Assembly: GCA_002071385.1 (NCBI GenBank) | Contig: MWFB01000001.1 | Span: 1 to 64,000 of the forward strand | DNA from: Bacteroidetes bacterium ADurb.Bin013 | GTDB lineage: Bacteria > Bacteroidota > Bacteroidia > Bacteroidales > UBA932 | Length of the DNA: 64,000 nt | Direction: 5' to 3' | Notes under the pieces: generated by a model | Databases searched by the model: none | Told to the model about the DNA's origin: nothing | Seen by the model: the letters and a program-made list of their open reading frames with translations, nothing else | Position numbers and translations under genes: made by a program | In this document: piece by piece, positions 33,965 through 58,099 of the stretch | Numbering within the stretch: the stretch's first letter is position 1 | Layout of the letters: every line of letters begins with the position of its first letter

Positions 33965-36460
33965 ATGAAACATGTTATCATTGGCGGTGTGGCCGGAGGA
34001 GCTACAACTGCAGCCCGCATCAGGAGAAATGATGAAAATGCAGAAATCATCATGTTTGAAAAAGGGAAGTACATTTCCTATGCAAACTGTGGTTTGCCTT
34101 ATTACATAGGTGATGTGATCAAAGACCGGGCTAAACTTTTTGTTCAGACACCAGAAAGTTTTGGGAAACGTTTCAATGTGGACGTCAGGGTGAACTCGGA
34201 AGTGATAGGCATCGATACTGAAAAACAACTTGTTACGGTCAGGAATGCAAAAGGAGACGAATACAGGGAAAGTTATGACAAACTTCTTCTTTCACCCGGG
34301 GCCAATCCCGTGAAACCTCCGCTGCCGGGCATAGATTCGGAAGGTATCTTTACCCTCAGGAACGTGGATGACACGGATCGTATCAAGGAATATATGCGTT
34401 CCCACCCCATCCGCAGGGCCGTGGTCGTAGGAGCTGGTTTCATTGGTCTGGAAATGGCAGAAAACCTGCATGCAACAGGCGCTCATGTGGCCATTGTGGA
34501 AATGGCCGAACAGGTTATGACTCCTATAGATTTTTCCATGGCCGGCCTGGTGCACCAGCATCTTTACCAGAAACATGTAGATCTGCATTTGAACCAGGCA
34601 GTGCAAGGATTCATCCCTGTTTCCGGGCCGGATCCTTCCATTAAGATCAATCTTAAAAACGGGAACGAACTTGAGGCCGATATTGTCATTCTTTCCATCG
34701 GGGTCAGACCAGATACGACCCTTGCAAAACAGGCCGGAATCACGCTGGGCCGTACTGGAGGTATACAAGTGAACGAATACCTGCGGACCTCGGCAGAAAA
34801 TGTTTATGCCATTGGGGACGCCATAGAATTTCCCCACCCTGTAAGCGGCGAACCCTGGCTCAATTACCTGGCGGGACCGGCCAACAGACAGGCCAGGATT
34901 GTAGCAGACAATATGGTATCCGGGGACCGTATAAAGTACGAAGGTTCCATCGGCACTTCAATAGCCAGGGTATTTGACCTGACTGTGGCTTCTACCGGGC
35001 TTCCGGGCAAAAAACTCAAACAGCTCAATATTCCCTATCTTACTTCCACTACACATTCTAATTCTCATGCAGGATACTATCCCAATGCCCTGCAGATGAG
35101 TACCAAAATTACTTTCGATCCGGAAACGGGACGACTGTACGGAGGGCAGATAGTAGGCTATGACGGAGTAGACAAGCGTATTGATCTGTTGGCACATGTA
35201 GTTAAAAAACAAGGAAGCATATACGATCTGATTACCATGGAACACGCCTATGCCCCGCCTTTCTCATCGGCAAAAGATCCTGTTGCCATTGCCGGCTATG
35301 TGGCATCCAATATTTTAAGCGGCAAAATGAAACCGGTTTACTGGAGAAAAATGCAAAAAACCGGACCCGGAGAAGTAACCAAACTCGATGTGCGTACGGC
35401 TGCTGAAAATAGTCTGGGAACCATTTCCGGATCCGTAAATATTCCCGTAGATGAACTCAGGAACAGGCTGGACGAGGTTCCCCGTGACAAACCTGTATAT
35501 GTATTCTGTGCTGTGGGACTGAGAGGGTATCTTGCATCCAATATATTGATACAGAATGGATTCAATAACGTTTATAACCTTAGTGGAGGATATAAGACTT
35601 ACGAAGCCGCAGCTGAATCGGAAAAGAAATCCATTCCCATCACTCCGGCTTTCTCTGCACCTTATTCAGACTCGGGGGATCCACTGGCAAAGAACAAAGC
35701 CGCTGCCTCTTCAAAAGCAGCCACCATTGAGGTGAATACCCTGAAAATTGATGCAACAGGACTGCAATGTCCCGGTCCCATCATGAAAATAAAGAGCAGC
35801 ATTGATTCCATAGTTCCTGGGCAGAGGGTGGAAATCCAGGCTACCGACCCGGGTTTTGCACGTGATATACAGGCATGGTGTCAGACTACAGGGAATGTGC
35901 TGGTTCAACAGTCAGACAGCAAAGGAGTGTTCACTGCTGTTGTAGAAAAGAAAGAGCGTGGGATTCAAGCTCCTGCAGCCCCTGAAGGAGGCAAAGGGAA
36001 AACCCTGATCATGTTCAGTGATGACCTGGACAAAGCTCTGGCAACCTTTGTGCTGGCAAACGGAGCAGCCGCCACCGGGGAAAAAGTCAGCATATTCTTT
36101 ACTTTCTGGGGACTTAATGTCATCAAGAAAATCAAGAAACCTGCCGTCAAGAAAGATATTTTCGGGAAAATGTTCGGGATGATGTTGCCTTCGCACAGCG
36201 GCGCACTGAAATTGTCCAAGATGAACATGTTCGGCATGGGACGGATCATGATGCGTCATATCATGAAAATCAGGGGTATCGATTCCCTGGAGGACCTTCG
36301 CCGCCAGGCCATTGAAAACGGGGTGGAATTCATTGCCTGCCAGATGTCCATGGATGTGATGGGAGTGAAAGCGGAAGAACTGATGGACAATGTGATCATA
36401 GGAGGAGTTGCCACCTATATGAACAGGGCCGTACAATCAAATGTTAACCTGTTTATCTGA
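33965..36460 (+). CDS. FAD-dependent CoA-disulfide-reductase-like protein fused to rhodanese, TusA and DsrE-type domains
   Basis: 831 residues, cytoplasmic, four domains in order. The pyridine nucleotide-disulfide oxidoreductase (1-450) has FAD motif GGVAGGATTAARIRR, active Cys in ANCGLPYYIG and the second Rossmann motif VVGAGFIGLEMAENL. The rhodanese domain (about 450-550) carries catalytic Cys in VFCAVGLRGY. The TusA-like domain (about 585-660) has TGLQCPGPIM. The DsrE/DsrF-like domain (about 675-830) begins KTLIMFSDDLDKALATF. The fusion should pass persulfide sulfur between domains and reduce CoA disulfides or polysulfide. This architecture is known in anaerobes including Bacteroidota. It is followed after 8 bases by a MarR-type gene, a candidate redox-sensing regulator. 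Confidence 0.93.
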   Translation: MKHVIIGGVAGGATTAARIRRNDENAEIIMFEKGKYISYANCGLPYYIGDVIKDRAKLFVQTPESFGKRFNVDVRVNSEVIGIDTEKQLVTVRNAKGDEYRESYDKLLLSPGANPVKPPLPGIDSEGIFTLRNVDDTDRIKEYMRSHPIRRAVVVGAGFIGLEMAENLHATGAHVAIVEMAEQVMTPIDFSMAGLVHQHLYQKHVDLHLNQAVQGFIPVSGPDPSIKINLKNGNELEADIVILSIGVRPDTTLAKQAGITLGRTGGIQVNEYLRTSAENVYAIGDAIEFPHPVSGEPWLNYLAGPANRQARIVADNMVSGDRIKYEGSIGTSIARVFDLTVASTGLPGKKLKQLNIPYLTSTTHSNSHAGYYPNALQMSTKITFDPETGRLYGGQIVGYDGVDKRIDLLAHVVKKQGSIYDLITMEHAYAPPFSSAKDPVAIAGYVASNILSGKMKPVYWRKMQKTGPGEVTKLDVRTAAENSLGTISGSVNIPVDELRNRLDEVPRDKPVYVFCAVGLRGYLASNILIQNGFNNVYNLSGGYKTYEAAAESEKKSIPITPAFSAPYSDSGDPLAKNKAAASSKAATIEVNTLKIDATGLQCPGPIMKIKSSIDSIVPGQRVEIQATDPGFARDIQAWCQTTGNVLVQQSDSKGVFTAVVEKKERGIQAPAAPEGGKGKTLIMFSDDLDKALATFVLANGAAATGEKVSIFFTFWGLNVIKKIKKPAVKKDIFGKMFGMMLPSHSGALKLSKMNMFGMGRIMMRHIMKIRGIDSLEDLRRQAIENGVEFIACQMSMDVMGVKAEELMDNVIIGGVATYMNRAVQSNVNLFI

Positions 36461-48178: not shown

Positions 48179-49444
48179 TCATTCGAAAACAGATACCAGG
48201 CTTTCATGACCGCCGGGGCCAACGGCACAGACCCCGAAAAAATAATTGTCTTTGCTGTAGGGAATCCGGATCCGTGTGTCCTCTGTGAAAATTCTTTTTT
48301 GCCATACAGACTGGTCTGTTTCACGTATCATTACGTGGTATCCCCTAACCACACCGGGTCCGTAAGACGGTTCCCACTCCAGTTCCGTGTAATTGCTTAA
48401 CACCCTCGTGTTCATCTTCACGCCGGCAGGTGCCGCAGGAGCTTTGGCCAGGTTCATGATGACAGCTATACCAATGCCGGTGTTTTTACGAACGTACTCA
48501 TAATCAACACCTGCAGGAAGATCTCCATACAGGACCCCGTTTTCCTCCCGAACCAGCTGGTGCGTCCTGTCGTAATTCTCATGAAACTCACAAATCCTGA
48601 CAGCAGTATACCCGGCCTTAAGGAAAGGTGTGTGGTCACCACCCCGCCCATACCTGTCATTCCTGTAGACCAGCGCCACCTCCACATTGTCTGCGTATGT
48701 CAGCGCGGTTTCCTTGATATATCTTGCCAATTCCCTGTGAGTTCCTTCTGCCGAGAAAACCCTTGTCCTGGTGTTGTCACGATGACCGGTTTCCCCTGCC
48801 TGCGAATTGCCAATCATATCAAAATTTAGAACAGCCGTGACATTCCATCCCTGTGAACGGGCCATGTCGGCCATGCAGGCAGCTCCCAACAGGCCATGCT
48901 CCTCTCCTGAAAGGAACAAGAAACGCACAGTTGCCTGCAAGGGGATGCCGGCCATGACCCGGATACATTCCAGCAGGCAGGCTACCCCGCTCCCGTTGTC
49001 ATTCGCTCCCGGGGCAAAAGATGTGGAGTCGCTGTTGTCATCCACACGACTGTCATAATGCGCCAGGAGAAGGATCTCACGGCTGTCTGACCCCTTCAGC
49101 ACAGCCATGACATTGGTTAGCTCCACCTGCCTGTCCAGCCTTGTCCCGGGTCCCCCGGCCGTATAAGTAACATTTTCCACGGAAAGTCTTCCTCCGGCCA
49201 GAGGTATCCATCCGGCAACCTTTTGATACAACCACCGGGAAGCAGCACCAATTCCCTTTTCATCACCGGTCAGGGAACTCAGGTTGTGGCGCGTATGAAA
49301 ACCGGTGAGTGTCCCGATATAACCGGCTATGCTGTCTGCAGAAACTGCTTCAACACAACGCATGATTTCCTTGTCCGGCTGTGAGGCTGCAATCAACGGG
49401 TAAACAAGAAACACTAAAAAGAGTACGTTCTTTTTCATAACCAT
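48179..49444 (-). CDS. M28-family secreted zinc peptidase with fibronectin-III-like tail
   Basis: 421 residues with a signal peptide (about 5-21). The M28 metal and catalytic residues are seen in LLLAHYDSR, PGANDNGSGVA, LSGEEHGLLGA, NFDMIG and the late HTPFLKAGYTAVRICE region. The C-terminal 90 residues look like a fibronectin-III domain (APAAPAGVKMNTRVLSNYTELEWEP-like start). Its ATG overlaps the stop of the upstream M28 gene as TGATG, implying coupled translation; Met3 is an alternative start. Aminopeptidase or carboxypeptidase specificity is not determinable here. Confidence 0.9.
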   Translation of the reverse strand: MVMKKNVLFLVFLVYPLIAASQPDKEIMRCVEAVSADSIAGYIGTLTGFHTRHNLSSLTGDEKGIGAASRWLYQKVAGWIPLAGGRLSVENVTYTAGGPGTRLDRQVELTNVMAVLKGSDSREILLLAHYDSRVDDNSDSTSFAPGANDNGSGVACLLECIRVMAGIPLQATVRFLFLSGEEHGLLGAACMADMARSQGWNVTAVLNFDMIGNSQAGETGHRDNTRTRVFSAEGTHRELARYIKETALTYADNVEVALVYRNDRYGRGGDHTPFLKAGYTAVRICEFHENYDRTHQLVREENGVLYGDLPAGVDYEYVRKNTGIGIAVIMNLAKAPAAPAGVKMNTRVLSNYTELEWEPSYGPGVVRGYHVMIRETDQSVWQKRIFTEDTRIRIPYSKDNYFFGVCAVGPGGHESLVSVFE

Positions 49445-50973
49445 CAGAAGAAATAAGAGAACCGGATCGTTTGGGTGCTGTTTTTCACATTATATCCCTG
49501 AAGCACTCCGGGCCGGAAAAGGCCTGTCATCCCCCACCTGGTCTCGAATCCCACCTGGAACACAGAAGCACGTACCCCCAATCCCAGCCCAAGTCCCCAT
49601 TCGTGGCGTCTGAATACATCGGTAAAAACAAAACCGGGATCAAAGGTCTGTCCGGCCAGATAATATCTATAATACGTGGTTGCCCAGGCATAAACACCTA
49701 CAGGCAGTTTATTGAATTCGGGAAAATATACCCGCAGTGATAACGGTACGCCCAGGGCAAGCATATGCATCTGGTTCATATAAGACGACCCGGGATACGG
49801 TGCATGGCGTGCCCCCACATATTCCACCCCGATACCCGGATTCAGCTCCAGGAAACCTTTCCACAGGAATCTGAAATCCGCACCCAGTGATGCATAAAAG
49901 GCAGTCTTCCCTTCCAGTGCCCCCTTCGTATGTACAAAGCGGTTGGTACCCAGGGCCCATGCAGGTCCCCAACTGAACAGGCTCGAGGGAACATGGTGGA
50001 TCACCGCGTAATTACCTGACGGAGTCAGGGAAGTATGCTTTCCCAGGGCAGTAACCAGGTTTTGGACATAATTTGTAACGGCAGTAAGTCCCTCGTAATC
50101 AACTTTTTCAGACTCATCTTCCTCTTTGTGATAAGGAGAGCTGCTTCCCGTGGTAATGTGTAAGGTAGGGATTCCCGCGCTGGCAAAAGGTTTTGTATCT
50201 GTTGCTGAAAAGGGAGAAATTTCATAGGGAATGAAACGAACCCTCAGCGCTTTGGTTTTGGGCAATAAAGCACGCGCATCATCCAGCGTGCCAGTGCCCA
50301 GTATTTTCAGAACGCCTGATGTCCTGTAATATCCCACCATATCAAGGCTTATCATGATCCGTATACTTTCCCGCGGGAACAGGGAATCAATCAGGAATTG
50401 TTTCGAGCCGAGCAAGCCTTGTTCTTCTCCGTCAAAAGCTGCGAACACAACCGTCCTTGCCAATCCCCCCTTTTCCTGAAGCTTTCCGGCCAGTTCTATC
50501 AGGACAGCTGTTCCAGAAGCATTGTCGTCCGCTCCATTGTATATGGATTGCTTCTCCCCGGAACCCCTGGTCGCCTTTCCGAGGTGATCGTAGTGAGCCC
50601 CGATGACTATGAATTCGGCTTTCAGGACGGGATCCGTTCCCGGCAAGACCCCAATTACATTACACCCCTCTATGACAGCAAGCGGAATATCTGGAACGGC
50701 CGAGGGGAGTTTCACATCAAAATAATGAAAATAACCTGTGCCGTTGTATTCGTCAAGACCTGCATCTGCAAAACAGTCAGCTATGTATTCTCCTGCAATC
50801 AGATTGCCTTCTGTGCCAATCAGCCTTCCGGCAAGCGAATCGGAAGCCAGGAAGGAGACATGTGTTCGCAGTCTCATCCTGGACATGGTCCAGGCATCGG
50901 CTTCCTGCGCCCGGAGATGCATCACACCGCATGTGAGAAGAAAAAGTACAGAACAGATATAGTATTTTTTCAT
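49444..50973 (-). CDS. M28-family peptidase fused to outer-membrane-type beta-barrel
   Basis: 509 residues with a signal peptide (about 1-22). The M28 domain (about 25-320) has GAHYDHLGKATRG, NGADDNASGTAVLIELA, AAFDGEEQGLLGS, LDMVGYY and HITTGSSSPYHKEEDESEK. The remaining 185 residues are quite different: amphipathic, aromatic-rich strands (ASLGADFRFLWKGFLELNPG, ALGVPLSLRVYF, WGLGLGLGVRASVFQVGFE) ending TIRFSYFF, as in small outer-membrane barrels of about eight strands. The fusion would tether the peptidase to the outer membrane. A TATATTTG box lies 16 bases upstream of the ATG. Confidence 0.85.
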   Translation of the reverse strand: MKKYYICSVLFLLTCGVMHLRAQEADAWTMSRMRLRTHVSFLASDSLAGRLIGTEGNLIAGEYIADCFADAGLDEYNGTGYFHYFDVKLPSAVPDIPLAVIEGCNVIGVLPGTDPVLKAEFIVIGAHYDHLGKATRGSGEKQSIYNGADDNASGTAVLIELAGKLQEKGGLARTVVFAAFDGEEQGLLGSKQFLIDSLFPRESIRIMISLDMVGYYRTSGVLKILGTGTLDDARALLPKTKALRVRFIPYEISPFSATDTKPFASAGIPTLHITTGSSSPYHKEEDESEKVDYEGLTAVTNYVQNLVTALGKHTSLTPSGNYAVIHHVPSSLFSWGPAWALGTNRFVHTKGALEGKTAFYASLGADFRFLWKGFLELNPGIGVEYVGARHAPYPGSSYMNQMHMLALGVPLSLRVYFPEFNKLPVGVYAWATTYYRYYLAGQTFDPGFVFTDVFRRHEWGLGLGLGVRASVFQVGFETRWGMTGLFRPGVLQGYNVKNSTQTIRFSYFF

Positions 50974-51083: not shown

Positions 51084-51115
51084 TTGTCCTAATTATGCAA
51101 ATTACATTACTTTTG
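51084..51115 (+). promoter_or_regulatory. Promoter of the arginine operon
   Basis: TTG at 51084-51086, a 21-base spacer and TACTTTTG at 51108-51115. Transcription would begin near 51121, directly before the leader-peptide ATG at 51123. Confidence 0.65.
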
Positions 51116-51122
51116 CCGCTGA

Positions 51123-51167
51123 ATGAAAAAGATCCTTCAGATTCTACGTATCCGACGACGGGCTTAG
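51123..51167 (+). CDS. Arginine-rich leader peptide (candidate attenuator peptide)
   Basis: A 14-codon frame reading MKKILQILRIRRRA. Four of the last six residues are Arg, encoded by CGT, CGA, CGA and CGG at 51147-51161, and the stop TAG is at 51165-51167. It lies between a good promoter and an intrinsic terminator whose left arm begins at 51160, ahead of an arginine biosynthesis operon. This is the arrangement of amino-acid attenuation. A ribosome stalled at the Arg codons when charged tRNA-Arg is scarce would cover the left arm of the terminator and allow read-through. The mechanism is inferred; the frame, codons and hairpin are read directly. Confidence 0.75.
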   Translation: MKKILQILRIRRRA

Positions 51168-51206
51168 GCTGCAGAATTCATTTCTGCATCCTGACGGGCC
51201 CTTTTT
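51160..51206 (+). terminator. Attenuator terminator in the arginine leader
   Basis: GGGC (51160-51163) pairs with GCCC (51198-51201). TTAGG pairs with CCTGA with one G-U, and TGCAGAA (51170-51176) pairs with TTCTGCA (51182-51188) around a 5-base loop. T5 follows at 51202-51206. The left arm overlaps the last Arg codon and the stop of the leader peptide. The first structural gene begins 42 bases further on. Confidence 0.82.
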
Positions 51207-51248
51207 AAATTTTCCAGAAACATTCCATAATCATTATTAAAAAAGACA

Positions 51249-51842
51249 ATGAATGTCCGCATTCTTGTTGCAAATGCCTCTCATATTGGCTATGCAGAAC
51301 GTATTTGTGAACTGATGTACATCTCCGCCCTGGAGCGCGGAACCGGTATTGCACGGCGTTCCCCGGAATACATTGGTGAGAAAATGAGCAGCAATAAAGC
51401 CGTGATCGCACTTGACGGCAAAAAAGTTGTAGGATTCTCCTATATAGAAACCTGGAGCCACAAATCATTCGTGGCCAATTCAGGTCTCATAGTGGATCAT
51501 GACTACAGGCACTTGGGCGTTGCCTCCAGAATCAAAAAAAGGATCTTCCATCTATCGCGTCAGCTGTATCCCCAGGCAAAGATTTTCGGGATCACAACAG
51601 GTGCTGCGGTCATGAGGATCAATTCAAAACTCGGATACCGGCCCGTCCCCTTCTCCGAGCTCACACACGATGAAGCATTCTGGAACGGATGCAGGGACTG
51701 CCGCAATTATGACATCCTCATGCGCAATGACAAACGCATGTGCCTCTGTACAGGGATGCTATACGATCCGGCAGAGCACCCGAAACGGCAAACAACCAGG
51801 AAAACACAACCAGAAAAAGAAGAGATTATCTATGAAAAGTAA
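51249..51842 (+). CDS. GNAT N-acyltransferase, first gene of the arginine operon (candidate N-acylglutamate synthase)
   Basis: 197 residues. The acyl-CoA binding motif A is VDHDYRHLGVASRIKKRIF; KVVGFSYIETW is the preceding strand and GYRPVPFSEL the end of the fold. A cysteine-rich tail (NGCRDCRNYD, RMCLCTGML) is distinctive. The first committed step of arginine synthesis is acylation of glutamate. No other acyltransferase is present in the operon, and the ornithine carbamoyltransferase here is of the N-succinyl type, so this enzyme is a candidate glutamate N-succinyl- or acetyltransferase. That role is inferred from position. It overlaps argG by 11 bases. Confidence 0.85.
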   Translation: MNVRILVANASHIGYAERICELMYISALERGTGIARRSPEYIGEKMSSNKAVIALDGKKVVGFSYIETWSHKSFVANSGLIVDHDYRHLGVASRIKKRIFHLSRQLYPQAKIFGITTGAAVMRINSKLGYRPVPFSELTHDEAFWNGCRDCRNYDILMRNDKRMCLCTGMLYDPAEHPKRQTTRKTQPEKEEIIYEK

Positions 51843-53028
51843 AGTAGTATTGGCTTACAGCGGCGGACTGGACACCTCTTTCTGTATTCCTTATCTGAAA
51901 CAGGAAAAAAAGATGGAGGTCCATACCCTGCTTGTGAATACGGGCGGTTTCAGCCCGAAAGAGGTCAGTGCATTGTCACAAAAAGCCCTTGACCTGGGAG
52001 CAGCATCCCACAAATCCATTGACATAAGAGAAACTTATTATACACGTTGTATTCGCTATCTGATCTTTGGAAATGTGTTGAAAAACAACACCTATCCCTT
52101 GTCGGTAAGTTCTGAGCGTGCATTCCAGGCCATGACGGTGGCAGACTACGCCCGCCGCATCGGAGCCCATGCCATTGCTCATGGCAGTACGGGTGCGGGC
52201 AACGACCAGGTTCGTTTTGATTATTTCATACACGTGATGGCACCGGAAATACAACTAATTGCCCCTATCAGGGAACTAAGGATCAGCAGGAAGGAAGAAA
52301 TGGATTACCTGAAGAACCTGGGTTTTGAGTTTAGCTGGGAAAAGTCGAGGTATTCTATCAACCAGGGAATATGGGGAACAAGCATCGGGGGCGCCGAAAC
52401 GCTCAGCTCCCTGGGTGAGTTGCCTGAAGAAGCCTACCCGGTGCAATGCACCAAAACTGGTACCGAAGTACTGACCATTGGATTTTCCGGAGGAGAACCC
52501 ATTTCACTGAACGGGATAGCCATGGATCCCCTCCAGGTCATTGAAAAAATACATGAAATAGCCGCTCCTTACGGGATTGGCAGGGACATCCACGTGGGAG
52601 ACACCATCATAGGCCTGAAGGGACGTGTGGGTTTTGAAGCGGCAGCACCCATGATCCTGATAAAGGCTCACCACCTGCTTGAAAAGCATGTCCTGGGAAA
52701 ATGGCAGTTGTACTGGAAAGAGCAACTTGCCAACTGGTACGGCATGATGCTGCACGAGGCCCAATACCTGGACCCCGTGATGCGAAACATAGAAGATTTC
52801 CTGGAAAACACCCAGAAACGTGTAACCGGGGAAGTATCGGTCCGCCTCCATCCCCGAACGTTTACCCTGGCAGGTTGCACAAGCCCGTTCGATCTGATGA
52901 ACCCGGCCTTCGGACAGTACGGAGAAGGAACCGCGGCATTCACCGGGGAAGATGTGGCAGGTTTTACACGCATTTATTCACTCCCGGTGAAAATTTATCA
53001 AAGTCTTGTTCATGAGCACAAAGATTAA
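51832..53028 (+). CDS. argG: Argininosuccinate synthase
   Basis: 398 residues from ATG 51832, which overlaps the GNAT stop; a longer in-frame extension upstream is rejected because the ATP pyrophosphatase motif AYSGGLDTSF must lie at the N-terminus. Other signatures include AHGSTGAGNDQVRFDYF (aspartate and citrulline binding) and GIWGTSIGGAE. It joins citrulline and aspartate with ATP hydrolysis. The last 17 bases overlap argC. Confidence 0.95.
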   Translation: MKSKVVLAYSGGLDTSFCIPYLKQEKKMEVHTLLVNTGGFSPKEVSALSQKALDLGAASHKSIDIRETYYTRCIRYLIFGNVLKNNTYPLSVSSERAFQAMTVADYARRIGAHAIAHGSTGAGNDQVRFDYFIHVMAPEIQLIAPIRELRISRKEEMDYLKNLGFEFSWEKSRYSINQGIWGTSIGGAETLSSLGELPEEAYPVQCTKTGTEVLTIGFSGGEPISLNGIAMDPLQVIEKIHEIAAPYGIGRDIHVGDTIIGLKGRVGFEAAAPMILIKAHHLLEKHVLGKWQLYWKEQLANWYGMMLHEAQYLDPVMRNIEDFLENTQKRVTGEVSVRLHPRTFTLAGCTSPFDLMNPAFGQYGEGTAAFTGEDVAGFTRIYSLPVKIYQSLVHEHKD

Positions 53029-54019
53029 CGTAGCCATAGCCGGAGGCGCCGGATACACCGGCGGGGAACTCATCCGTTTGCTGTTGCATCACCCTTCGGC
53101 GCATCTTGTTTCTATAGTAAGCCAATCCGGGGCAGGAATGCCCCTGGGCTCGGTACACCATGACCTGGAAGAAGAAACGGATCTCACCTTTGAGGAGGAG
53201 CTTCCCCACAAGGACATTGATGTGTTGTTCCTGTGCCTGGGACACGGACGTTCCAGGGATTACCTAGGTCGGCACAACACTGAATCTATCGGTCATATCA
53301 TTGACCTGAGCCAGGATTTCAGGCATACGGGGAACCAGGTGGCAGGCAACCGTCGTTTCATCTACGGATTGCCAGAATCCTGGCAGTCTCCCGGGCAATA
53401 TGCCACCAACCTCAGGAATGCAGGCAATGTGGCTAACCCGGGGTGTTTTGCCGCCTGTATCGAGCTTGCCCTGTTACCTCTGGCAGCAGGAAAACTGCTG
53501 GAAGAGGCGATTCATGTGCACGCTATAACAGGGGCAACAGGAGCCGGAGGGCGGCCTGCCGAAACGTCACATTTTCCATACAGGGATAACAACCTGGCCG
53601 TTTATAAGGTTTTCACCCACCAGCATGTCACGGAAATTTGCCAGACGCTATCTGCGTCCTGCCAGGGTGAGATACCGCCCCTGCATTTTGTTCCCATCCG
53701 GGGTGACTTTCCCCGGGGGATCCTTGCCAGTGTCTATACGCCCTGCCGCCTGAAACAGGAGCAGGCAGTGCAATGGTACAGGGAATATTACCGGGAACAC
53801 CCGTTCGTCCATGTCTCTGACCGGGAGATCAGCATGAAAGAAGTGGTCAATACCAATAAATGCACACTGCACATCCAAAAACACGGAAACATGCTGCACA
53901 TAACCTCCATTCTGGACAACCTGCTAAAAGGGGCATCGGGAACGGCAGTACATAACATGAACCTGCTTGCGGGGTTGCCCGCGACAACAGGATTGCAGCT
54001 CAAATCAATCGTATTTTAA
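53012..54019 (+). CDS. argC: N-acyl-gamma-glutamyl-phosphate reductase
   Basis: 335 residues from ATG 53012. NADPH motif AIAGGAGYTGGELIRLL, active-site Cys in VANPGCFAAC and the HFVPIRGDFPRGI segment with the catalytic histidine region identify ArgC. It reduces N-acylglutamyl phosphate to the semialdehyde; in this organism the acyl group is probably succinyl. It overlaps argG by 17 bases and precedes the carbamoyltransferase by 10. Confidence 0.94.
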   Translation: MSTKINVAIAGGAGYTGGELIRLLLHHPSAHLVSIVSQSGAGMPLGSVHHDLEEETDLTFEEELPHKDIDVLFLCLGHGRSRDYLGRHNTESIGHIIDLSQDFRHTGNQVAGNRRFIYGLPESWQSPGQYATNLRNAGNVANPGCFAACIELALLPLAAGKLLEEAIHVHAITGATGAGGRPAETSHFPYRDNNLAVYKVFTHQHVTEICQTLSASCQGEIPPLHFVPIRGDFPRGILASVYTPCRLKQEQAVQWYREYYREHPFVHVSDREISMKEVVNTNKCTLHIQKHGNMLHITSILDNLLKGASGTAVHNMNLLAGLPATTGLQLKSIVF

Positions 54020-54029
54020 AAAGACGGCC

Positions 54030-55007
54030 ATGAAACATTTCACCTCGGTCAAGGACATCGGTCCACTTGACAAAGCCATACAGGAAGCATTACGTATCAA
54101 AAAGGATAAATTCACAGAAAACGAACTGGGGAAAAACCTTACGGCCCTGTTGATTTTTTTCAATTCCAGCCTGCGTACCCGCCTGAGCACACAGAAAGCA
54201 GCCGAAAACCTGGGCATGCATGTCATTGTCCTGGACATACAGCAAGGCGCCTGGAACCTGGAAACACGCAAAGGTGTCATCATGGACGGGGACAAGCCGG
54301 AACACCTGCTGGAAGCCATTCCCGTCATGGGATGTTATGCAGATATCATAGGGGTACGTTCCTTTGCCCGTTTTGAAAGCAAAGAAGAGGATTACGGTGA
54401 GGTTATCCTGAACCAGTTCATCCAGTATTCCGGGAAACCGGTCATCAGCCTGGAATCCGCTACCCGCCATCCGCTGCAAAGCTTTGCAGACCACATTACC
54501 ATAGAGGAGTACAAGACGGTAGAGAAACCACGGGTGGTCCTGACCTGGGCACCGCATCCAAAGGCCCTCCCCCAGGCCGTACCCAACTCATTTGCCGAAT
54601 GGATGATAGCTGCCGGATATCCGCTGACCATAACCCATCCCAGGGGTTATGAGCTGGATGAGCGCTTTACACAGGGCGCAACAATCACATACGACCAGCA
54701 GGAGGCTTTCCGCGGGGCAGATTTCATCTACGCCAAGAACTGGGCTGCCTACAGGGACCCCGACTATGGCAGGATACTGAGCACAGACCCCTCCTGGATG
54801 GTGGACAGGAAGAAAATGGAACTCACCAGCAATGCTTTCTTCATGCATTGCCTTCCAGTTAGGCGCAACATGATTGTAACGGATGAGGTGCTGGACAGTC
54901 CGCGCTCCATTGTCATTTCCCAGGCAGCCAACCGTGAGATCGCCGCCCAGGTGGTACTTCGCAGTATATTGAAAACACTTCAAGTAGCAAATCCATCATG
55001 TACCTGA
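54030..55007 (+). CDS. argF': N-succinyl-L-ornithine carbamoyltransferase
   Basis: 325 residues from ATG 54030. Carbamoyl-phosphate motif is FFNSSLRTRLSTQKAA; others are ESATRHPLQSFADH and MHCLPVRRNMIVTDEV. The sequence follows the Bacteroides fragilis succinylornithine enzyme. Residue 90 is proline (GDKPEH), the residue published as switching specificity to N-succinylornithine; N-acetylornithine enzymes have glutamate there. It carbamoylates N-succinylornithine to N-succinylcitrulline, which ArgE then deacylates. It overlaps argB by 10 bases. Confidence 0.93.
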   Translation: MKHFTSVKDIGPLDKAIQEALRIKKDKFTENELGKNLTALLIFFNSSLRTRLSTQKAAENLGMHVIVLDIQQGAWNLETRKGVIMDGDKPEHLLEAIPVMGCYADIIGVRSFARFESKEEDYGEVILNQFIQYSGKPVISLESATRHPLQSFADHITIEEYKTVEKPRVVLTWAPHPKALPQAVPNSFAEWMIAAGYPLTITHPRGYELDERFTQGATITYDQQEAFRGADFIYAKNWAAYRDPDYGRILSTDPSWMVDRKKMELTSNAFFMHCLPVRRNMIVTDEVLDSPRSIVISQAANREIAAQVVLRSILKTLQVANPSCT

Positions 55008-55738
55008 ATATTTTCAAGATTGGAGGCAACATCGTAGATGACCCCAAAAGGCTGGATGTATTCCTGGACACTTTTTCCCATTGCCGGGAAAAAAAGATAC
55101 TTGTTCACGGCGGAGGCACCCTGGCCAGTGAACTGTGCCGGCAGCTGGGCATACCCGTTGAAATGAACCAGGGGCGGAGGATCACTGGTCCCATAACCCT
55201 GCGTGTTGCTGTCATGGTGTATGCCGGGTGGATAAACAAGAACCTGGTGGCCTCGTTACTTGCCAGGGGCTGCCGCGCGATGGGCCTGAGCGGGGCGGAC
55301 GCAGGCTGCATTCTGGCTGATAAAAGGAAACCGGAACCGCTGGATTATGGTTATGTGGGGGACCTGGGAAAAGAAAGCGTAAATGTGCATTACATACAAA
55401 GTATCCTGGAAAATGGCCTGGTACCGGTCTTTTCACCGATCACCTGCGACCATGCGGGACAACTGCTCAACACCAACGCCGATACCATAGCCTCGGCCCT
55501 GGCTGTTGCATTCAGAGGTTTCTATATGGTCAGGCTGCGGTATGTTTTCGACAGGGAAGGAGTTTGCTGTCCCGGTTCGGAAAAGCCGCTGTCCCTGCTG
55601 AGCCGTGCTCAATACGAAAAACTCCGCGATCAGGGTACCATCTCGGACGGGATGATCCCCAAGGTGGAAAATGCGCTATGCGCCCTGGAACAGGGTGTGG
55701 GTGAGGTTTTCATAGGTAATACCTGTATACGGTTATGA
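54998..55738 (+). CDS. argB: N-acylglutamate kinase
   Basis: 246 residues of the amino acid kinase fold. ATP-binding KIGGNIVDDP, the glycine loop VHGGGTLASEL, TGPITLRVAVMVYAGWINKNLVA, GLSGADAGCI and C-terminal DGMIPKVENAL correspond to the ArgB pattern. Length is at the short end of the family. It phosphorylates N-acetyl- or N-succinylglutamate. It starts in the last codons of the carbamoyltransferase and overlaps argE by 4 bases. Confidence 0.92.
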   Translation: MYLNIFKIGGNIVDDPKRLDVFLDTFSHCREKKILVHGGGTLASELCRQLGIPVEMNQGRRITGPITLRVAVMVYAGWINKNLVASLLARGCRAMGLSGADAGCILADKRKPEPLDYGYVGDLGKESVNVHYIQSILENGLVPVFSPITCDHAGQLLNTNADTIASALAVAFRGFYMVRLRYVFDREGVCCPGSEKPLSLLSRAQYEKLRDQGTISDGMIPKVENALCALEQGVGEVFIGNTCIRL

Positions 55739-56814
55739 AAGAAATGACTGATCTGCTCTGCAGGCTGATAGGAACGCCATCTGTTTCGGGCAGTGAGGAA
55801 AAAACAGCCGCGTTACTTGCAGATTATCTGCAGGCACAACCGGGCATCAGGGTAGAACGTATGGGCAATAATGTCATAGCCCGGAAAGATTCTTTTTCAG
55901 CCGGACTTCCCACGGTTCTGCTTTGTTCCCATCACGACACGGTCAGGCCGGCTGCCAGTTATTCCAGGGACCCTTTTGTCCCTGTGACTGAAAACGATCC
56001 TCAGGGCAGGACACGGCTGTACGGTCTGGGAAGCAACGATGCAGGGGGCGCGGTGGTAACCATGATCCGGGCTTTCTGTGGCCTGCAGGAGCTGCCCTTC
56101 AATCTTTTGCTGGTCCTTGCAGCAGGAGAGGAAACCTCGGACCCGGCGGGTATTACCCGGGTATTGCCAGCTCTTCCCGAAATCAGCTGCGCCATAGTGG
56201 GTGAGCCCACCGGGCTACAGGCCGCCGTGGGAGAAAAAGGACTGCTGGTGCTGGACGGACATACATGGGGACGCTCTTCCCATGCTGCCCGTAACGACGG
56301 GGTGAACGCGCTTTATGCAGCCCTGGATGACATTGCAGTCCTAAGAAATTTTCGTTTTGAGAAAGAATCCGAAATCATGGGTCCGATTCACCTGCAGGTG
56401 ACACAGATTGAAGCCGGGGAACAACACAACATCATTCCCGACTCATGTCATTATGTGGTGGATATAAGAACAACAGATGCTTATACCAGCAGCGGGATAG
56501 TGGAGTTGCTGGGCAAGGTTGTCTCGGGACAGCTCGTCCCACGGAATCTTTCATACAAAGCCTCCCTTACCCCATTGGGTAATCCGTTGCGCGATGCGGT
56601 GAAAAAAGCGGGACTCGGCACATATATATCCCCTACCTCGTCGGACTGGATGCGCCTGCCCTGCCCTGCCATAAAACTGGGTCCCGGAGACTCTCTCAGG
56701 TCCCATACGTCCGACGAATTCATTTACTTATCTGAACTGGAGCAGGGAGTGGAAACCTACACGAAAGTGCTCCGGTCACTAACATTGCAACATAATGGAA
56801 ACACTCTGGAATAA
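55735..56814 (+). CDS. argE: M20-family N-acylornithine/N-acylcitrulline deacylase
   Basis: 359 residues. Zinc ligands and catalytic residues are in LLCSHHDTVRP, YGLGSNDAGGAVV, LAAGEETSDPAGI and VGEPTGLQ; the lid or dimer domain begins near HTWGRSSHAARNDGVN. ArgE/DapE/ACY1 family. Given the succinyl-specific carbamoyltransferase upstream, the substrate is probably N-succinylcitrulline. The start overlaps the argB stop by 4 bases. Confidence 0.92.
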   Translation: MKEMTDLLCRLIGTPSVSGSEEKTAALLADYLQAQPGIRVERMGNNVIARKDSFSAGLPTVLLCSHHDTVRPAASYSRDPFVPVTENDPQGRTRLYGLGSNDAGGAVVTMIRAFCGLQELPFNLLLVLAAGEETSDPAGITRVLPALPEISCAIVGEPTGLQAAVGEKGLLVLDGHTWGRSSHAARNDGVNALYAALDDIAVLRNFRFEKESEIMGPIHLQVTQIEAGEQHNIIPDSCHYVVDIRTTDAYTSSGIVELLGKVVSGQLVPRNLSYKASLTPLGNPLRDAVKKAGLGTYISPTSSDWMRLPCPAIKLGPGDSLRSHTSDEFIYLSELEQGVETYTKVLRSLTLQHNGNTLE

Positions 56815-58099
56815 AGGAATTGAAACGCCCGGGGAAGTCACCCGGTTCACCGTGGGAAACGATCCTCATTGGGACATGCGGCTGGCTCCCTATGACATAA
56901 AAGGATCCATGGCACACGTCAGGATGCTGGGCAAGACCGGCCTGCTGACGCAACAGGAGACAGAAGTAATCATCACCGCCCTTGACAGGATCCTGGAGGA
57001 AATCCTGCAGGGAAGACTGGTCATCGGGCAGGAAGCCGAGGATATTCATTCCCTGGTCGAGCTTGCATTGACGCGAGAGTTGGGTGAGACGGGCAAAAAA
57101 ATACATGCGGGACGTTCCCGCAATGACCAGGTGATGACCGACATTCACCTGTACCTTAAGGATGTCTGCAGGGAAATTGCCCTTCTTACCGGGAATCTTT
57201 TCCGGTGTCTGCAGCAGAAAAGCGAGTCGTACAAAGATATCTTCATGCCCGGGTACACCCATGAAAGACCGGCCATGCCTTCTACTTTCGGCCTTTGGCT
57301 GGGAGCTTATGCCGAGGTGCTGGTAGACGACATGCACCAGCTGGGCGCGGCATGGGAGCAATGTGACCAGAATCCTCTGGGTTCAGCCGCCGGATACGGG
57401 AATTCATTCCCGCTGGACAGGGAGGAAACAACAAGGCTTTTGGGATTCAGCACCTTGAAATTCAACAGTATTGCAGCACAGATGAGCCGGGGAAGAACAG
57501 AGCGTTCCCTTTCTTATGCCATGGCTTCTCTTGCCGGAACCCTGAACAAGCTTGCTGCAGATTGTTGCCTGTTTTCAGGTCCTGACTATGGTTTTATAGA
57601 ATTTCCAGAATCACTGACCACGGGAAGCAGTATCATGCCGCACAAAAAGAATCTCGATGTCTGGGAACTGATCAGGGCGCATTGCAACAATATCCAGGGC
57701 CTGCCCAACCAGATCACCCTGGTGTGCACCAACCTGACCCATGGGTACCACAGGGATTACCAGCTGCTTAAAGACTTTCTTTTTCCGGCCATAGATTCGC
57801 TGCTCGATTGTATCCGGATGTCTCTCCTGATGGTGGACAACATGAAAGTCAACCCTGCGCTAGCAGAAGATGCCCGATATAATACGGTTTTTAGTGTAGA
57901 AACTGTAAACCGTCTGGTCATCAATGGCATGCCGTTCAGGGATGCCTACCGGCAGGTAGCCTCGTCTCTCCGTGACGGTTCCTACAAGCCGGAAAAGAAT
58001 ACACGTCATACCCATACGGGCAGCACGGGCAATCCTGCAAATGAAAAAATCCGGGACAAAATGGACAGGGCCCTCTCCCGGATATTGCAACAGGACTGA
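56795..58099 (+). CDS. argH: Argininosuccinate lyase
   Basis: 434 residues. The fumarase/aspartase-superfamily signature TTGSSIMPHKKNLDVWELIR holds the mobile catalytic serine loop. HAGRSRNDQVMTDIHLYL and GYTHERPAMPSTFG are the other conserved regions. It splits argininosuccinate to arginine and fumarate, the last step. It overlaps argE by 20 bases and ends the operon. No argD aminotransferase or carbamoyl-phosphate synthase lies in the window, so they must be elsewhere. Confidence 0.95.
   Translation: METLWNKGIETPGEVTRFTVGNDPHWDMRLAPYDIKGSMAHVRMLGKTGLLTQQETEVIITALDRILEEILQGRLVIGQEAEDIHSLVELALTRELGETGKKIHAGRSRNDQVMTDIHLYLKDVCREIALLTGNLFRCLQQKSESYKDIFMPGYTHERPAMPSTFGLWLGAYAEVLVDDMHQLGAAWEQCDQNPLGSAAGYGNSFPLDREETTRLLGFSTLKFNSIAAQMSRGRTERSLSYAMASLAGTLNKLAADCCLFSGPDYGFIEFPESLTTGSSIMPHKKNLDVWELIRAHCNNIQGLPNQITLVCTNLTHGYHRDYQLLKDFLFPAIDSLLDCIRMSLLMVDNMKVNPALAEDARYNTVFSVETVNRLVINGMPFRDAYRQVASSLRDGSYKPEKNTRHTHTGSTGNPANEKIRDKMDRALSRILQQD

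Follow-up and report, generated by a model that had tools for sequence, protein, structure and literature searches.

The region under study (positions 51084-51248) lies in a window of 64,000 nt, the whole stretch of DNA that was analysed, from contig MWFB01000001.1 of Bacteroidetes bacterium ADurb.Bin013. It stands on the plus strand before an operon whose first gene encodes a GNAT-family acetyltransferase (51249-51842, plus strand), assigned by weak GNAT Pfam matches just below the cut-offs and by its linkage to argG, which is found across Bacteroidota. The following genes on the same strand, identified by Pfam and NCBIfam matches, are argG, argC, argF' (N-acetylornithine carbamoyltransferase), argB, an argE-like peptidase gene and argH (51832-58099), giving the order GNAT-argG-argC-argF'-argB-argE-argH. 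Divergent from this arginine operon, on the minus strand at 48179-50973, there are two adjacent genes which by sequence impression encode secreted M28-type peptidase-like proteins.

A Bacteroidota-type promoter can be read directly upstream of the operon: a -33-like TTG element (51084-51086, plus strand), weak when taken alone, is located 21 nt 5' of the -7 box TACTTTTG (51108-51115, plus strand), which follows the TAnnTTTG consensus. In flavobacteria TAnnTTTG has been described as the -7 box for sigma-A (PMC9723704). Seven nucleotides behind the box a 14-codon leader frame encoding MKKILQILRIRRRA begins on the plus strand (51123-51167, with the 42-nt coding part at 51123-51164 and TAG at 51165-51167); its codons are ATG AAA AAG ATC CTT CAG ATT CTA CGT ATC CGA CGA CGG GCT TAG, and the Arg run CGT-ATC-CGA-CGA-CGG, with the core ATC-CGA-CGA at 51150-51158, precedes the stop. 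The operon genes make arginine, the amino acid of these clustered codons. A 42-nt plus-strand hairpin (51160-51201, -21.6 kcal/mol), a putative terminator or pause, starts inside the last Arg codon (51159-51161) and takes in the stop codon with its left arm; it is followed by a T5 tail (51202-51206) and a G-poor spacer up to the first gene (51207-51248). The promoter, the Arg-codon leader, the T5-tailed hairpin overlapping its end and the arginine operon are thus all present as the initial annotation described them, and the promoter does directly precede the leader; the distance from box to ATG is 7 nt, and the gap of about two bases given there depends on a presumed start site.

Such near-leaderless arrangements are frequent in the genome. 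The pattern TANNTTTG-N5-11-ATGAA was found 60 times against 10 times in the reversed control (6-fold), and among these 60 sites only the one at 51123 opens a short frame with an Arg cluster before a gene. A sigma-70 scan misses this promoter type, and a simple terminator scan misses the long hairpin. The window gave no Rfam match at the gathering threshold, and eight related loci gave chance-level Rfam matches only.

Four Arg codons among 13 would occur by chance with p ~0.005 at the local Arg frequency. The GNAT gene was followed through 150 genomes of the family (106 matches), two genera in full, the order, named genomes and the phylum. At 71 of the 102 GNAT loci of the family a TAnnTTTG-like box is followed after 4-10 nt by a short Arg-rich frame. 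One further automatic call, the 72nd, was dropped because argG is not adjacent to GNAT in the genus concerned, and the automatic procedure lets in a few doubtful frames. All ten loci of the own genus with readable upstream sequence carry the leader in the form ILR[IV]RxRA (once LWA), and an HVRR-type leader is present in 21 of the 21 readable members of the sister genus, to which Bacteroidales bacterium CF belongs. In other genera of the family the leaders end in RRVRR or RVRR before the stop, or contain two Arg clusters. The N-termini diverge and the length ranges from 13 to 30 aa, the frame stays open, and the C-terminus keeps its Arg cluster on [V/I]-CGA; among 12 CF-genus leaders variation is greatest at third codon positions. 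Since it is conserved in relatives, both close and distant, the leader is not a chance frame, and the alignment upstream of GNAT-argG across Bacteroidales that had been proposed as a check bears out this part of the initial annotation.

Two extremes of leader architecture were also noticed: leaders of 28-30 codons in which a [V/I]-Arg cluster in the middle is joined by a second one immediately ahead of the stop (L040, L043 and L065 in genus g5; L068-L071 and L073 in genera g23 and g7), and minimal leaders of 11 codons with two Arg codons only, e.g. MNISRHILVRI, in Cryptobacteroides-like genomes (L236, L248, L263).

Outside the family, the operons of Proteiniphilum and Fermentimonas (Dysgonomonadaceae) are headed by leaders ending in LVRRCF or VRRRS, and Arg leaders occupy the same position in the Flavobacteriaceae, with examples in Maribacter (ending in TPVRRRP), Leeuwenhoekiella and Lutibacter, and in another class of the phylum. 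Under a loose rule, the phylum sample yielded Arg-rich frames at 29 of 40 same-class loci and at 12 of 20 loci from other classes, compared to 16 of 60 reversed controls, and the clearest of them (ending in PTRRRP or PIPRRR) recur within lineages. The arg leaders of Flavobacteriaceae (L282, L291, L293, L295, L300, L276, L273) are followed by a hairpin with a near-constant GGAAATAGGTGAGTCCATTTCC-like loop and a varying stem, in which AGGTGnGTCC is kept; this loop is a candidate RNA motif.

Control by the repressor ArgR has its textbook example in arginine operons. The window genome (about 95% complete) gave no match to PF02863 (ArgR). PF02863 is present in nine of the 150 family genomes, and in eight of these nine ArgR lies directly upstream of GNAT, the place taken elsewhere by the leader; elsewhere in Bacteroidales, outside the family, argR usually lies next to the GNAT locus. 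Among loci where argG follows GNAT, 75 have only the leader, 28 only ArgR, 32 neither and one both (Fisher p = 2e-11, a value which, like the counts, ignores shared ancestry). The single overlap was rejected upon inspection, as the frame is spurious and lies inside argR. The same avoidance was observed across the phylum: of 296 genomes sampled GNAT occurs in 130 and ArgR in 102, and both in at most four. As far as sequence comparison can tell, the leader element replaces the argR gene held at this spot in other Bacteroidales. The leader and the ArgR states both occur within single genera (g17, g23, g5), so the exchange has probably taken place more than once. Genus g17, for example, includes both loci with the leader and no ArgR and loci with ArgR and no leader (L032, L041, L061, L023 and L092, L096, L099, L100). 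The statement that an Arg leader heads the arginine operon is thereby supported in near and distant relatives, ArgR being absent where the leader is present. The 32 loci with neither leader nor adjacent ArgR, as well as the leaders with only two Arg codons, count against an attenuation reading. GNAT-argG loci with neither an adjacent ArgR nor a recognisable Arg leader were seen in Alistipes and Rikenellaceae (L223, L226, L229, L234, L237, L254 and others).

Arginine accounts for 19% of leader residues compared to 5.8% in the window genes, and the choice of codon is even more skewed: CGA makes up 122 of the 252 Arg codons (48%) in 68 distinct family leaders, whereas in eleven window genes, where it is the rarest Arg codon, it makes up 6 of 229 (2.6%; p = 1.7e-34). 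Both the Arg enrichment and the CGA bias are what would be expected if the codons had been selected for regulation; such bias in the leaders of attenuators is known and has been discussed (PMC1183508). Further Arg leaders, which the initial annotation proposed to look for before argD or carAB, did not turn up in the own genome, neither ahead of carA nor ahead of any of its three class-III aminotransferase genes. The same genome (about 95% complete) has no hisG match, so that it offers no his leader for comparison, and it probably lacks histidine synthesis.

The hairpin at the stop codon is well conserved within the genus. In the window RNAfold gave z = -2.97 for 51117-51210, with 4 of 200 shuffles as good; over the genus the mean is -20.5 kcal/mol compared to -7.5 kcal/mol for shuffles, and in the alignment of 10 sequences 93% of cells are paired, against 36-50% when the pairing is slid, two pairs showing compensatory change. 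The stop codon is in the left arm in 10 of 10 cases. The T-run is not shared: the 8 nt 3' of the hairpin contain five T in the window genome, the only one of the ten with a T5 tail, and one to four in the nine congeners. In one other genus half of the species have a T-run, while in the CF genus and two other genera folding at the stop codon does not exceed chance. Neither a conserved alternative (antiterminator) stem in the own genus nor a clear mutually exclusive one in the window was found, and a long-range pairing in the CF genus between the leader start and the RNA 3' of the stop, complementary by eye, was rejected because its register shifts between species. T-tailed hairpins do occur in the own genome, as a strong T6 terminator-like hairpin follows a near-leaderless 7-codon frame (MKPYFIC and stop; L162) near 36064 of G000:C16.

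The intrinsic terminator of the initial annotation therefore holds only in part and is not supported as a general mechanism: hairpin and T5 are present in the window, and congeners retain the hairpin as well, but the T-tailed form is not conserved in close relatives, where the leader frame is. Because the T-run is not kept and some genera have no hairpin above chance, this is not a conserved intrinsic terminator, and no single uniform terminator fits all the genera. Likewise, direct blocking of an intrinsic terminator by the stalled ribosome agrees with the overlap of the left arm with the last Arg codon and the stop, and with the hairpin kept in the genus, and less well with a T-run unique to the window genome.

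The tails of the congeners without T-runs are C/U-rich and G-poor, e.g. GCCCTATCTCCGACCTCCC, TATCTCCGACC, ACATCC and AACTTCC, which makes Rho-dependent or atypical termination possible. In such an attenuator the leader ribosome would decide on the action of Rho on the C-rich, G-poor RNA, the hairpin would be a pause or a spacer and the T5 would be incidental. This is a sub-case of attenuation and competes with the intrinsic-terminator step only. The composition is in its favour: C exceeds G in 57 of 64 post-leader regions and in all ten own-genus loci, where the post-leader spacer contains 23% C but 5% G (approximate values). Dysgonomonadaceae, and leaders of another class, likewise show a hairpin with C-rich, G-poor RNA behind it. 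However, only 12 regions served as the control for composition (p = 0.006), the window genome does carry a T5 tail, and a ribosome stalled before the tail would leave a wholly downstream rut site uncovered, so that an extra step, loss of the pause, would be needed. We regard Rho as a possible agent, with chances clearly below even. Equally tentative is the broader idea that a near-leaderless, CGA-tuned leader, swapping with ArgR, may act through Rho or T-run-independent termination in much of Bacteroidota.

Attenuation by decoding of the leader, whichever way transcription ends, must also be weighed against explanations that start from the core of the leader. GUC-CGA or AUC-CGA accounts for 72 of the 90 [V/I]-Arg dicodons of the family leaders, and so little variation in UCCGA points to a demand that goes further than the mere presence of an Arg codon, be it one of decoding, of codon context or of RNA structure. 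The core might be mainly an RNA element and the peptide of secondary importance: it could form the tip of a hairpin spanning the Arg codons, belong to a 1:2-type hairpin as in classical attenuators, or be a protein site. The nearly invariant nucleotides would fit, and so would local folding, in which native flanks (-7.9 kcal/mol) do better than flanks exchanged between genera (-6.8 kcal/mol, 0 of 40 swaps as good), but this gain is modest, the structures differ between genera, the variants GUC-AGG and AUC-CGG preserve the amino acids, and the frame is open everywhere; we consider such an element unlikely. An arrest peptide resembling the fungal arginine attenuator peptide, in which the nascent R-[V/I]-R would respond to arginine itself by stalling in the exit tunnel instead of codons sensing charged tRNA, seems slightly less likely still. 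The [V/I]-R core is kept while the flanking residues change, and minimal leaders with a single LVRI end exist; on the other hand the N-terminal parts diverge almost freely, the endings in Flavobacteriaceae are different (PVRRRP, PTRRRP), and the strong CGA bias favours decoding over peptide sequence. It is very improbable that the short frame has no regulatory role and arises incidentally from a strong near-leaderless promoter with an ordinary hairpin, in view of the Arg-rich frame conserved across genera, the CGA bias and the exclusion of ArgR.

The promoter, the leader, the conservation of its Arg codons, the CGA bias, the hairpin of the genus, the operon and the exclusion of ArgR are given by the comparison of sequences. 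From these we infer a mechanism which supplies the start site, the stalling, the termination with its machinery and the direction of the response. Transcription would probably start a few nucleotides 5' of the leader ATG, and because of this short distance the first ribosome would load almost at once. When arginyl-tRNA is plentiful, mainly the isoacceptor reading CGU/CGC/CGA, the ribosome would clear CGT-ATC-CGA-CGA-CGG, reach the stop and leave, the stop-codon hairpin would then form and transcription would end, at the T5 in the window genome and, in relatives, perhaps through Rho acting on the G-poor RNA. Under arginine shortage the ribosome would stall on the Arg codons and cover the left arm, so that the base of the hairpin could not close and transcription would run into GNAT-argG-argCF'BEH. 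Leader conservation, CGA bias, ArgR exclusion and recurrence in the phylum together support arginine-specific attenuation well, and the arginine operon is likely to be governed by a transcription attenuator that works through the ribosome and is specific for arginine; bacteria with the leader probably sense arginine by the speed of the ribosome on the leader gene. The swap of ArgR and an Arg-codon leader at one spot means that two unrelated sensors replace each other, and it extends across a phylum of central importance in gut and marine habitats. Transcription-translation coupling, which the leader requires, and termination, for which the terminator is apparently non-standard, thereby become directly testable in Bacteroidota.

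Leader-peptide attenuation itself is already known, and Lopatovskaya et al. reportedly treated it across bacteria in 2010 (as cited in PMC4833913). No arginine leader of this type in Bacteroidota, of which the initial annotation knew none either, was found in the literature searched, which covered freely readable papers and the main text of PMC9723704. The his, trp, leu, thr and ilv attenuators of Proteobacteria and Actinobacteria share with our model the short frame enriched in end-product codons, the structured RNA and the presumed stalling; the locus described here differs by its arginine operon, its occurrence in Bacteroidota, its near-leaderless start, a T-tailed terminator that is not conserved and, in the window, the lack of a clear mutually exclusive antiterminator stem. 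Another short upstream frame reporting arginine is the fungal arginine attenuator peptide, which, unlike the mechanism proposed here, affects translation and works by way of the peptide inside the ribosomal tunnel. In the same phylum, a 2021 study of Flavobacterium psychrophilum reported from transcript maps signs of the same kind of mechanism, leader-peptide attenuation, upstream of amino-acid operons (PMC9723704); its main text names no arginine operons and describes no leaders. In Pseudomonas aeruginosa a leader peptide precedes carAB, which serves arginine synthesis (PMC4997734), but carA is not an arg operon, pyrimidine control was proposed and the phylum is unrelated. Repression by ArgR acts on the same operon with presumably the same signal and, in leaderless relatives, from the same locus, but as a DNA-binding repressor.
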